Assembly (NCBI GenBank): GCA_017460625.1
Contig: JAFUAT010000004.1
Coordinates: 62,001 to 126,000, forward strand
Source: Candidatus Saccharimonadota bacterium
Lineage (GTDB): Bacteria; Patescibacteriota; Saccharimonadia; Saccharimonadales; Saccharimonadaceae
Direction: 5' to 3'
DNA length: 64,000 bases
In this document: in pieces, positions 27,835 to 33,864 of the stretch
How the letters are laid out: every line of letters begins with the position of its first letter
How positions within the stretch are numbered: the first letter of the stretch is position 1
Position numbers and translations under genes: made by a program
Notes under the pieces: model-generated
The model's database searches: none
What the model saw: the letters and a program-made list of their open reading frames with translations, nothing else
Told to the model about the DNA's origin: nothing

Positions 27835-29391
27835 TTATCTAATTCTTTTAGATAAACAGAAGAAACTAAACGCTGAGACTGTCACGCCGACCAAAATGGC
27901 TACGACGAGATTGCTACTAGTAGCAGAGGCAGACCCCACAGTGGAGACCACACCAGTATCTGGAGTTTGGAGATCAGCGGAGGTGTCTGGGATAATAATA
28001 ACTTCTTCCTCATAATCTTCGTCTACTATCTCTTGATAGAATAGTGCATAAGTAGAAAACTTATCGCTGTAGAATGAGAATGTGCCATCGCCATTATCGG
28101 TAGCATCAAGGACCTCTTTTGTCCCATTGTGATCGCGCACGACATAGAAGATACGCTTAAAACCTTCGGGTACTTCCGACAAATCCATCTCTTCAGGGAA
28201 GGAGAGAGTTATTTTGTGGGTGGTAGCGGATTCGGAGATTTTATCTACTGGTGTGCCGTTTTGTTTGACGATAAGCTCCACATCATAGTAGCCAAGGACG
28301 ATACCTTCAGTTATCATAGCCTGATAGGCGGATTTTTCTTCGTCGGTTAGAGTAGAAGCATTGACGGTCTTTGACTCAATCTCGGTAGTATATGAATCAT
28401 CATCTTCTGGGGTGTCTGTCACGATAATCAAGAAAGATTGATCTTCGACATTATCACCGTGATAATGGATCGTCATAGTGACTTCGCCTGGTTTGTGTGC
28501 TTCAAAGGTAAAACCTCCGATGCAATCTCCAGATACACTCACGATATTTTCATCACTAGATGAGATCTCGTAAAACGGCAAATTGCCGGTATCTTCGATT
28601 TCGTAGTGTCTAGTCTTGACGTCTTCTGTGCCATAAGCGGACATGTAGAGATTCTCCAGATACGGCTCTTCATAGACCTGGACGTATAATCTAGCAAATT
28701 CATCATTACTATCAATCATTTCCGCTGGGCCATCATAATAGCCACCAGAGAATGGATTATAGAAATAGACATCGTCTGCCCAAGCTTCATCACCTGCCAT
28801 GATGACTGCATCCGACACATACTCACCGATAATCGTGAACGGCTGAGATTCTTCCTCGTCATCATAAGTCCAATTGGCTACTTTGATTTCTTCTGGATTA
28901 TCAAAATAGCTCGATACGAGATCGCTAAGCTTGACCGATGAATTAGTAGGTAGGTAAACATCGATGTGTTCGCCTGTGGCTGGATTAGCGTCAGCGTTCG
29001 GATCGGCAAAGACGTGGACGGTCACTTCATTAGTGTAGATGACGTTCTCGTCTTCGTCTAGATATTCGCAGATAGCCGTAGCACGCCCAACTTTTTTACC
29101 AGAAATAATACAGCGATTGTCTTCATTTTCGTCGTAGCCAATGATAGATGTATCGCTTAAGGTTTTCCTGACCGAGACAGAGTCGGCAGGCTCAGTAATA
29201 CCCGCATCATCCAAACCGGCTTGATCGCCGATTTCTATGTATATTTCTGATAATGTTTGACCGTCGTCACCACTGATTTCCCCTCCTCGCCAGTAGGCTG
29301 AGACATTGCCTGCGCTAGCGATGAGAGGTGCGTTCATACCAAAAAGCACCGACATCGCCACTAGGGCACTTGGCATTCTTTTTCTTGCCAT
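27835..29391 (-). CDS. secreted surface protein with Ig-like regions and PDTG wall-sorting signal
   Basis: A signal peptide (first about 30 residues, ending at an A-S-A type site) is followed by acidic beta-rich regions that look Ig-like. Near residues 340-460 is a domain common in Gram-positive surface proteins, ending with FSFYSDKFSTYALFY. The C-terminus has TPDTG, a hydrophobic segment and a short Lys/Arg tail, matching the anchor of the protein at 1-1242. The ATG at 29391 sits after TTGGAGGT; an in-frame TTG at 29403 lies inside that site. Length 518. Probably a sortase substrate with adhesive or structural role. Confidence 0.85.
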   Translation of the reverse strand: MARKRMPSALVAMSVLFGMNAPLIASAGNVSAYWRGGEISGDDGQTLSEIYIEIGDQAGLDDAGITEPADSVSVRKTLSDTSIIGYDENEDNRCIISGKKVGRATAICEYLDEDENVIYTNEVTVHVFADPNADANPATGEHIDVYLPTNSSVKLSDLVSSYFDNPEEIKVANWTYDDEEESQPFTIIGEYVSDAVIMAGDEAWADDVYFYNPFSGGYYDGPAEMIDSNDEFARLYVQVYEEPYLENLYMSAYGTEDVKTRHYEIEDTGNLPFYEISSSDENIVSVSGDCIGGFTFEAHKPGEVTMTIHYHGDNVEDQSFLIIVTDTPEDDDSYTTEIESKTVNASTLTDEEKSAYQAMITEGIVLGYYDVELIVKQNGTPVDKISESATTHKITLSFPEEMDLSEVPEGFKRIFYVVRDHNGTKEVLDATDNGDGTFSFYSDKFSTYALFYQEIVDEDYEEEVIIIPDTSADLQTPDTGVVSTVGSASATSSNLVVAILVGVTVSAFSFFCLSKRIR

Positions 29392-29418
29392 TTTTACCTC
29401 CAATTAGCTATTATATAT

Positions 29419-31616: not shown

Positions 31617-31675
31617 GCACAAGATTTATCTTTTTTCAATATAAATTTGTGGGCTTGTGGTTTTTAGAAATGTGA

Positions 31676-31681
31676 TATAAT
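31676..31681 (+). promoter_or_regulatory. extended -10 promoter of the structured RNA
   Basis: TGA-TATAAT placed so that the expected start (six or seven bases later) falls on the first bases of the RNA's closing helix at about 31687. Confidence 0.7.
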
Positions 31682-31685
31682 TAAA

Positions 31686-31838
31686 GTGCAACAGTTATGT
31701 ATTTTTACTAATAGCAAGTCTATTTTATTGTAAATAGATTGCCATTGGAACATTGAAACGGCATCATGAGGATGTTGTGCTCTAATGGCAACTTGCTAGT
31801 AGAATTGCATAACTGTTGCACCTCGTGGTGCCGTTTTT
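31686..31838 (+). ncRNA. candidate structured non-coding RNA, about 150 nt, unknown class
   Basis: Ends: 14 bp perfect closing helix P1 (31686-31699 with 31808-31821). Inside: P2 (31712-31719 with 31791-31798), a hairpin (31720-31725 with 31732-31737) and P3 (31740-31746 with 31784-31790) make a three-way junction with only two unpaired bases, then a 5-bp stem (31749-31753 with 31772-31776) with an 18-base loop. That loop (31756-31771) is complementary over 16 bases, two of them G-U, to the 3' tail (31821-31836). The tail also forms a GCACC/GGTGC hairpin (31818-31831) followed by CGTTTTT. Promoter upstream and T-tract downstream fit an independent transcript. The following gene has its own TATAAT at 31869-31874. 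It does not match any RNA class recognised here. Confidence 0.7.
31818..31838 (+). terminator. terminator of the structured RNA
   Basis: A 5-bp GCACC/GGTGC stem with loop TCGT, then CGTTTTT. Its left arm shares GCAC with the RNA's closing helix, so the two helices compete. Confidence 0.55.
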
Positions 31839-31868
31839 GGTTTAGGAAAAAGGCGGCCTCGCGAATAA

Positions 31869-31874
31869 TATAAT
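31869..31874 (+). promoter_or_regulatory. -10 promoter of the FISUMP surface-protein gene
   Basis: TATAAT with 16 bases to the ATG at 31891 and a TGAGG site between. Confidence 0.55.
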
Positions 31875-31890
31875 ATAAAGTGAGGTAAAC

Positions 31891-33207
31891 ATGCAAAAAA
31901 TCATAATCCAACATTTCAAAAAACATAAAACGCAAAAAACAGGGAAAGAAAAAATCATAACCCTGAGTTTTAAAATCATAACTTTTAGTTTTCTTGGGCT
32001 TAGTTTTGGGACTTTTACTCCGGTTTTTGCCGAGACCATGAAGAGCGAAGTCAATATCAGGCCATCTATGACTCTAGACGTATCAGCTAGTAGTGTTAAC
32101 CTTAATCTAGATCCTGCTACAAATGCGTTTGCGTCCGAAGACATCGACATCACAGTAGGTACTAACAACAAGGCTGGCTACTGGATTTCTATGAGTTCTG
32201 CTACTTCTGGTTCGGACTTAGTAAACATTAATGATAACACCAAAACTATTCCTACTATTACTACAGCTGGAAGCTATACTAGTTCTAACTTTCCAATCAA
32301 CCAATGGGGATACAAAATAGATTCTGGGAACTACACTCCATTTGTTTCTGGAGCCACCATCAAAAGCTCTAATACTACCGCAAACGGTGAAACGTTTAAG
32401 CTAAACATTGCCTCAAAAATAGATTATCTTCAATCACCTGGTACTTATAATATGGTTTTAAATATCAAGATGCTGCCGAATGTGATTCAGGAATATATGC
32501 AAGATATCACTCCAGAAATGTGTACTGAAGAACCAAGCGTCGTCATGGACAAACGTGATGGGCAGACTTATACCATTGCGAGGCTTAAGGATGGGAAGTG
32601 CTGGATGACACAAAACCTGAAGCTTGGAAAGTATACCGATAGCCTCACGCTCACGAGCGAAAATTCGAATGTAGGTACGAGTGGGTTCACATTGGATGGA
32701 AAATTGATGGATGGAAAATTTATCGATGAGAAAGTGAATATTTCTACGTATTACTGTACCGATAATTATGGTTGTTATTATAATTGGTATACAGCTGTAG
32801 CAGGAAGTGGCAATACCTCGTCTGCTGCTGGAAATATGCCGTATAGTATTTGTCCTGCTAATTGGATACTACCTTCAGGTGATTCGGGTGGCGATTTTGA
32901 AATATTAGTAAACGCTTATGGCGGAGCTAGTGAAATAGTTTCTCCCATTCTTCTAGTTGATCCGCCAAGTAGTACAGAAAATATCAATGGTGCATCTATG
33001 CCTGGTTTCTTGCTTGGGGGTGATTATAGGACTGACGGTGTTGGGGTGGGGATAAATTTAGATTCCGTTTATTGGTCTAAATCTATGTCAAACAAGATAT
33101 CTTACGAACCTTACGATTTCTTTATTAGGTTGGACCGGCAGCATCAAATAGACACTGGGAGACCTGCTTCTGGCCGTCCCGTCCGTTGTCTCCTTAAAGA
33201 ATTTTAA
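31891..33207 (+). CDS. secreted surface protein with N-terminal adhesin-like domain and C-terminal FISUMP domain
   Basis: Basic N-terminus and signal peptide (residues about 25-50, cleavage near VFAE). Residues about 55-200 form a beta-rich domain with NQWGYKI, NYTPFVSG and SPGTYNMVLN, related to the domain in the protein at 57534-58523. The C-terminal about 220 residues are a Fibrobacter-succinogenes-major-paralog domain: DGQTYTIARLKDGKCWMTQNL, CPANWILPS and the terminal GRPVRCL. Cys residues may pair outside the cell. No PDTG anchor is present. The role is probably surface attachment or glycan contact, inferred from family use in CPR and Bacteroidota. Confidence 0.85.
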   Translation: MQKIIIQHFKKHKTQKTGKEKIITLSFKIITFSFLGLSFGTFTPVFAETMKSEVNIRPSMTLDVSASSVNLNLDPATNAFASEDIDITVGTNNKAGYWISMSSATSGSDLVNINDNTKTIPTITTAGSYTSSNFPINQWGYKIDSGNYTPFVSGATIKSSNTTANGETFKLNIASKIDYLQSPGTYNMVLNIKMLPNVIQEYMQDITPEMCTEEPSVVMDKRDGQTYTIARLKDGKCWMTQNLKLGKYTDSLTLTSENSNVGTSGFTLDGKLMDGKFIDEKVNISTYYCTDNYGCYYNWYTAVAGSGNTSSAAGNMPYSICPANWILPSGDSGGDFEILVNAYGGASEIVSPILLVDPPSSTENINGASMPGFLLGGDYRTDGVGVGINLDSVYWSKSMSNKISYEPYDFFIRLDRQHQIDTGRPASGRPVRCLLKEF

Positions 33208-33239: not shown

Positions 33240-33602
33240 CTAATCGTGAATCAAATTAGCGCAATAATCTTTTAGCTCTGGGATATCATTTTCTACCGTA
33301 TCCCACAAAATATCCGGCATAACTTTACCATAAGCGTGCACAATTCTATTTCTAAATCCAATAATAGCTCTCCATTCTATGTCTGAATGTTTTTCCTTAA
33401 ACTCATCACTTAATTTGCCTGCGGTCTCACCAATTTGTTGAACGAAGAAAGCCAGCATCGCTCTATATCCGTTGTTTTCTGTGATTTTCTCTAGACTTAA
33501 ATCAAAATCTTTCACTGCATCAGCAATATTGTCGCAATAATTTATAATCATCCTCAGAAGAAAAGCATCTTTGTCAGGCTCCATATAGTAATATCCTGTC
33601 AT
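33240..33602 (-). CDS. hepT: HepT-type toxin, HEPN RNase family (DUF86)
   Basis: A roughly 115-residue all-helical protein with RNRIVHAYG, the Rx4HxY motif of HepT toxins; the Tyr is the residue that cognate MntA-type antitoxins adenylylate. It overlaps the 3' end of the nucleotidyltransferase gene immediately upstream, typical for the HepT/MntA pair. The start is either the ATG at 33602 or the in-frame ATG at 33584, which gives a shorter 11-base overlap; family alignment slightly favours the shorter form. Expected to be an RNase held inactive by its partner. Confidence 0.9.
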   Translation of the reverse strand: MTGYYYMEPDKDAFLLRMIINYCDNIADAVKDFDLSLEKITENNGYRAMLAFFVQQIGETAGKLSDEFKEKHSDIEWRAIIGFRNRIVHAYGKVMPDILWDTVENDIPELKDYCANLIHD

Positions 33603-33864
33603 TTTTTATTAAATCAAAGAAGCCTGGGAACATGCCGTCTTCGGAAGTGATATCCACGTCCGTGCCCAGTTCGGCCTCTAACTCGTCACAAAAATGAAAA
33701 TAGTCTTTATAAGTATGTAACTCGCCCTTGTCTATCACCAAGTCTACATCGCTATTCTCATTCGCCGTGCCTTTAGCATAAGAACCAAAAAGATACGCAC
33801 TTTTAATGCCATATTTTTTACCAATTTTAGACACCACGTCTTTTATTGTGTTAATAGTTAACAT
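33574..33864 (-). CDS. mntA: MntA-type nucleotidyltransferase antitoxin
   Basis: Minimal nucleotidyltransferase of 96 residues. The polymerase-beta-like motif is intact: YLFGSYAKGTANENSDVDLVID, giving G-S-x-A and D-x-D, with a third acidic residue in TDVDI. In the characterised family the enzyme adds AMP to the Tyr of HepT and so neutralises it. Promoter is the leaderless type (TGG-TATAAT, seven bases before the ATG). First gene of the pair, co-transcribed with hepT. Confidence 0.9.
   Translation of the reverse strand: MLTINTIKDVVSKIGKKYGIKSAYLFGSYAKGTANENSDVDLVIDKGELHTYKDYFHFCDELEAELGTDVDITSEDGMFPGFFDLIKNDRILLYGA

Follow-up and report, generated by a model that had tools for sequence, protein, structure and literature searches.

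Covarying loop-tail pairing in a family of probable leader RNAs that precede genes for secreted and membrane proteins in Saccharibacteria

The window that we analysed, a stretch of 64,000 nucleotides of a Candidatus Saccharimonadota genome (G000, contig C1), contains on its plus strand a compact structured element between a promoter and a gene for a secreted protein. The extended -10 promoter element TGATATAAT (31673-31681) ends 4 nt 5' of the 5' arm of a closing helix, P1 (31686-31701), and the transcript 5' end is predicted within the first bases of that arm. The 3' arm of P1 (31806-31821) was assigned on the basis of fold and covariation. Enclosed by P1 are the 7-bp hairpin P2 (31719-31738; arms 31719-31725/31732-31738), which takes part in a three-way junction, and the hairpin P3 (31739-31791), which according to the fold has 14-nt arms (31739-31752/31778-31791) and presents the apical loop L, AAACGGCATCATGAGG (31756-31771). 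This loop is the covarying complement of the tail T, CCTCGTGGTGCCGTTT (31821-31836), the 3' arm of the L:T helix. T runs into the sequence TTTTT (31834-31838), the U-tract of a proposed terminator, and is followed by a weak candidate for a second complement of T, segment D (31853-31865, score 8.5), by the Shine-Dalgarno motif GAGG (31882-31885; similarly placed in relatives) and by the gene taken to be controlled (31891-33207). An alternative local tail hairpin (GCACC-TCGT-GGTGC, 31818-31831, -8.3 kcal/mol) is also available.

The original prediction, made from the letters of this DNA alone, described a perfect 14-bp closing helix, P2, P3 and a tight three-way junction, and all of these are present at the given positions. 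The arms of the closing helix extend further (31686-31710/31797-31821) and span 25 nt with 88% Watson-Crick pairs, the perfect stretch being the first 14 bp. The predicted pairing of loop and tail over 16 bases likewise exists, with 14 Watson-Crick and 2 G-U pairs and a duplex energy of -28.0 kcal/mol for 18-nt segments, and the tail would double as a terminator arm, the helix running into UUUUU. The RNA fold of 31676-31845 has an energy of -65.6 kcal/mol, versus -35.7 ± 4.0 for dinucleotide shuffles (z -7.5), and none of the 200 shuffles folds as stably. The reverse strand folds equally well, as is expected of inverted repeats, but promoter, U-tract and gene orientation agree on the plus strand.

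The downstream gene encodes a 438-aa secreted protein with a signal peptide and a Fib_succ_major domain, the match to PF09603 (E 1.9e-7, 32.0 bits) lying slightly below the cut-off of 33.9. Two other loci on the minus strand of the window deserve mention: two adjacent small genes, HEPN-like (33240-33602) and nucleotidyltransferase (MNT)-like (33574-33864), by eye a candidate toxin-antitoxin pair, and a gene for a 522-aa secreted protein (27835-29403) with a C-terminal PDTG motif, a hydrophobic segment and a basic tail, as in sortase-anchored proteins. The arrangement differs in a related genome (G007), where a HEPN-like gene is found 5' of the element.

A DNA search of 60 congeners recovered a single close copy, 98% identical, together with numerous matches limited to loop and tail; in the elements behind the latter the stem sequences differ and the overall plan is unchanged. 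The covariance model R1, in which P1 was entered as paired and the remainder as sequence, without supplying the L:T pairing, matched 58 of 147 congeneric genomes, often with 15-20 copies per genome and with at least 20 matches in each of G056, G064, G100 and G103. Because the scoring of candidates was capped for each genome, these copy numbers are minimum values, and the covariance-model E-values are rough. The remainder of the order is nearly without R1 matches. Public records that have the same tail and match R1 belong to Candidatus Saccharibacteria MAGs, largely from ruminant gut, and to rabbit-gut MAGs. Exact matches to the tail pattern in Pantoea, Halomonas and others score 20-28 bits with R1, are mostly short and partial, and were discarded as ordinary terminators. 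When the window and 20 relatives were searched against Rfam 15 at the gathering threshold, tRNAs alone were matched, and in a relaxed search around the element all scores were far below gathering. The prediction of a new structured RNA holds in this respect, and the element is no isolated sRNA but belongs to a large RNA family that has no name yet.

Compensatory changes, the check that had been proposed, were found in both long-range helices. All 15 scored pairs of P1 change on both sides (98.9% paired) and the L:T helix has two-sided changes at 9 of its 16 pairs (94.8% paired), in each case over 108 distinct rows that are not independent events, as some are orthologues between close species (e.g. 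L098/L126, L095/L123). For P1 and L:T together the covariation score is 0.457, versus 0.18 for shuffled and below 0.1 for slid alignments; eight weak rows of the alignment (A2) are probably reverse-strand or chance matches. The covariation in L:T does not stem from fitting, because the model had been given P1 but not this pairing. Among 101 related elements, on average 16.8 of 18 loop-tail positions are paired, with a best-segment score of 14.6 versus 6.1 with shuffled tails, and because the pairing recurs throughout these elements a chance complementarity is excluded. The mutually exclusive or pseudoknotted loop-tail pairing that had been suggested for the window is accordingly a conserved property of the family. 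G-U pairs are tolerated throughout L:T. One genome (G029) holds three copies that are each compensated differently (GAGT/ACTC, CAGC/GCTG and CAAGG/CCTTG), and since the differing L and T of each copy match internally, the pairing occurs in cis.

Within genomes conservation is confined to L and T, the identity over P1-P3 being about 0.52-0.67. In each of G100, G103 and G064 the 10-11 sampled copies share one and the same tail, although P1-P3 identity there is just 0.52-0.59 and L identity 0.80-0.87, the variation in L remaining compatible with T. As T is invariant while stems and L vary, it seems to be under a second constraint, be it the local hairpin, D or a common trans factor. The L:T duplex has a median energy of -25.3 kcal/mol versus -7.5 for the local tail hairpin, which is kept in most copies and lost in one (L046) where L:T stays. 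The P1-enclosed region folds with a median z of -4.5 over the 101 copies. A three-way junction with a 5'-side branch is predicted in only 65 of them, so P2 seems optional and less constant than P1 and P3. We also observed in the P2 region (about element position 34) a U-run of TTTT or longer in 92 of 101 copies, versus 67 expected, mostly at a near-identical place.

A shorter form, class II, occurs in other genera and has the loop ACGGCACCGCATAAGCA and the tail CACCTTGCGGTGTCGTTTTT. With model R2, class II or its relatives were found in 62 of 295 genomes of the class, distributed over 31 of 129 genera and including families f38 and f41, which lie outside the order of the window; where the phylum at large was sampled, matches came from 8 genomes, each of them in the order of the window. 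Across the class, genomes often have 10-20 copies. Class II elements of other genera and orders keep L:T, which is complementary with compensation (e.g. GCA/TGC to GTG/CAC), and the U-tract, and nearly all have the -10 box. The genes 3' of them, many of which are short, encode small membrane or secreted proteins, T4SS pilins (L294) and surface proteins (G333); neighbours named by eye include an R-M-type methylase (L335) and a radical SAM protein (L310).

Several observations concern the surroundings and spread of the copies. In G005, G012, G058, G094 and G103 many copies (e.g. L055-L059, L125, L126, L137, L138) lie some 30-500 bp from the gene-side end of a contig, from which we gather that the genes that follow are probably repeated or population-variable and so break assemblies. 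Rabbit-gut MAGs labelled Clostridia/Oscillospiraceae/Dysosmobacter (2.1-3.2 Mb; G478, G479, G480, G481, G482) hold 1-3 copies of the element with a surface gene, for instance L212 5793-5944, L224 4679-4834 and L248 6114-6246 (in G478, G479 and G480), the first two near large serine recombinases. GC content and tetranucleotides of the tested contigs fit Clostridia genomes, which suggests cross-phylum transfer on mobile elements, with assembly chimeras as the alternative. Blastn searches of plasmid and phage collections gave no element match, the spaced loop-tail pattern is absent from the viral contigs searched, and six matches of the class II loop pattern in such contigs were rejected as chance matches that lack the surrounding element. 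One IMG/VR contig (IMGVR_UViG_3300029305_004784; L172 861-11423) has a true element with a 252-aa surface gene beside an integrase-like gene. Terminase-, portal- and capsid-like phage genes, named by eye, adjoin this element, and the surface gene is cut short, as though interrupted by an integrating provirus.

A TATAAT-like box stands at a fixed distance of 4 nt 5' of P1 in 83 of 101 copies (with a TGn extension in 70), which supports the proposed transcript start on the closing helix, and a TTTTT U-tract is present in 94. The columns of the U-tract are U in 100-101 of 101 copies, the opposite A's being kept in as few as 75; because the U's are near-invariant where their partner A's are lost, the tract seems to be maintained for its own sake, which a terminator would require. 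A Shine-Dalgarno-bearing ORF, mostly 26-220 nt 3' of the U-tract, follows in about 90 of the 93 copies with enough downstream sequence, the choice of ORF having been mechanical (first 320 nt, Shine-Dalgarno preferred). Nearly all these ORFs, usually of 400-1000 aa, have an N-terminal hydrophobic secretion signal, and the domains found are Fib_succ_major, List_Bact_rpt and, weakly, Lcl_C. Exceptions are L083, whose gene lacks a signal, and L087 and L171, which have no obvious partner gene. The element thus has the position of a cis-regulatory leader, between a promoter and a same-strand gene with no conserved promoter intervening, and, with a stable helix directly 5' of a U-tract, the structure of an intrinsic terminator.

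With moderate confidence we regard the element as a 5' leader that acts in cis on the mRNA of a secreted protein, by transcription attenuation. RNA polymerase would start at the first bases of P1 and the leader would fold as P1-P2-P3, with P3 displaying L; the emerging T would then pair with L, and the resulting helix of 13-16 bp, ending at the U-tract, would form an intrinsic terminator in which an apical loop, and not an adjacent strand, supplies the 5' arm. Terminated transcripts would end as a compact RNA of ~155 nt whose 5' end is paired, the gene would be carried by read-through transcripts, and regulation in vivo would come from something that masks L or T. The local tail hairpin and sequestration of L by P3 are candidate alternative folds ahead of the terminator. 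Intrinsic (Rho-independent) terminators and attenuators resemble the family in having a GC-rich helix with a U-tract directly 3' of it between promoter and gene, and a terminator arm with alternative pairings. The family differs in that the 5' arm lies 49 nt upstream, in the apical loop of an extended P1-P2-P3 fold, so that the terminator would be pseudoknotted, and in that the stem sequences are free and loop and tail are constrained.

Several points count against attenuation. A full 16-bp helix within the loop closed by P3 is topologically awkward and P3 may have to open; our guess is that P3 and L:T are alternatives and that breathing of P3 is probably needed. A constant terminator makes the genes depend on read-through. 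Finally, attenuation alone leaves the conservation of D unexplained. Between U-tract and Shine-Dalgarno, 66% of leaders have a further stretch complementary to T (with a score of at least 8), versus 5% of dinucleotide shuffles, and GGCACC-like words occur there in 46 leaders versus 5 expected. D is strong in other genomes and marginal in the window. Being downstream of the U-tract, it cannot prevent termination and is no antiterminator; its role may be to release L, to reset the leader or to influence translation, and in many genomes D would take T from L after read-through.

These properties of D lend some weight to a rather unlikely alternative, namely a leader that does not terminate at all, in which the P1-capped pseudoknotted RNA protects the 5' end of the mRNA and tunes translation through competition of L, T and D near the ribosome site. 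The transcript 5' end inside P1, the location of D in many genomes at 25-40 nt before the start codon, where it competes for T, and the position of nearly all elements 5' of a Shine-Dalgarno-bearing gene agree with it, but the U-tract, conserved independently of its pairing partner, would be unneeded for translation control. Two further candidates were set aside by eye. A leader peptide starting from the RUG of P1 fails as the frames stop at once in several copies (for instance L059, GTG CTA TAA), and sequestration of the Shine-Dalgarno by T, with 5-7 possible pairs in the window, is not supported, as the former stays GAGG where T becomes CCTTG. In relatives such as L063, L155 and L150 we noticed by eye that ATGGCC/ATGACC just 3' of the U-tract matches GGCCAT/GGTCAT near codons 3-5; this possible second hairpin would enclose Shine-Dalgarno and start codon, and its changes are apparently compensatory.

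The original reading was a free-standing sRNA, with the gene having its own promoter. Such an RNA would be fully terminated and would act in trans, perhaps on T, L or D segments of its many relatives, and we now consider this improbable. The very stable fold flanked by promoter and terminator fits such an RNA, as does a tail that is identical among the sampled copies of three genomes with near-random stems, as a trans partner would demand. However, the adjacency of about 90 of 93 copies to a gene is not that of a trans-acting sRNA, and the single-copy genome of the window has no other convincing T-like site. The promoter that had been assigned to the next gene (TATAAT, 31869-31874) does not stand either, as its start would fall inside the Shine-Dalgarno, and an extended -10 between tail and start codon was found in none of 89 leaders. 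Loose -10 matches (5 of 6) between tail and gene are somewhat enriched over single-base shuffles, and weak secondary promoters there are possible. Overall, the earlier reading of the element is partly supported, and the leader may still yield, as a by-product, a short RNA ending at the terminator after some 155 nt.

Among known leaders, preQ1-I and SAM-II are riboswitches with pseudoknot switching, and EAR elements are structured nascent RNAs that suppress termination. The former share with the family the leader position, the pseudoknot, a terminator and a possible sRNA by-product; the family differs in having no conserved junction or pocket nucleotides, its conservation being limited to L and T, and in its many copies per genome, which precede surface genes and not metabolism. 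Stems that vary in sequence give no hint of a small-molecule pocket, which also counts against attenuation, and conserved aptamer nucleotides of a metabolite riboswitch are absent outside the switching helices. For SAM-II, termination to an sRNA has been predicted (PMC9373788). HK022 put RNA is described as a structured nascent RNA near the transcript start that suppresses termination (PMC9378689). It is very unlikely that our element is a comparable antiterminator that modifies RNA polymerase: the complex fold at the transcript start, by inference affecting termination, and the often long class I genes are compatible with it, but with a conserved terminator-like L:T and U-tract of its own an antiterminator would defeat itself, short genes are common in class II and the stems lack sequence conservation; put and EAR, compared by description, suppress termination, whereas a putative terminator is built into the family. 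Palindromic or terminator-like candidate RNAs from the human microbiome are similar as comparative-genomic structured RNAs with terminator character; the main text of that report names no Saccharibacteria or TM7, and overlap with the family is possible (PMC8040213). The least probable explanation is a DNA-level folded site (attC-like or a transposon end) that moves or recombines surface-protein genes, to which the dispersed copies, many at contig ends, and the rabbit-gut Clostridia copies, two of them near serine recombinases, could point, but promoter, U-tract and Shine-Dalgarno placement are constant, the G-U pairs accepted in L:T fit RNA, no attC R-box consensus was seen by eye, and recombinases were noticed only near Clostridia copies and one provirus and not beside the window copy.

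Beyond the attenuating leader itself, we tentatively consider a class-wide Saccharibacteria regulon, a possible but doubtful extension in which one trans factor (protein or RNA) reads L, T or D of 10-20 or more leaders and pseudoknot-gated termination picks among paralogous surface proteins, which in an episymbiont are likely to mediate host contact, with the short leaders possibly cross-talking via D. Our literature search found no paper that joins Saccharibacteria with structured RNA and no description of such an RNA from this group, and the native RNA regulation of these episymbionts has apparently received very little study. A large, covariation-backed family tied to genes for secreted and membrane proteins would open the control of surface proteins in a host-dependent phylum to direct tests. 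The proposed terminator, its 5' arm exposed in a loop, is of unusual design, and the leader might be developed into a regulatory part for a group that is short of genetic tools.
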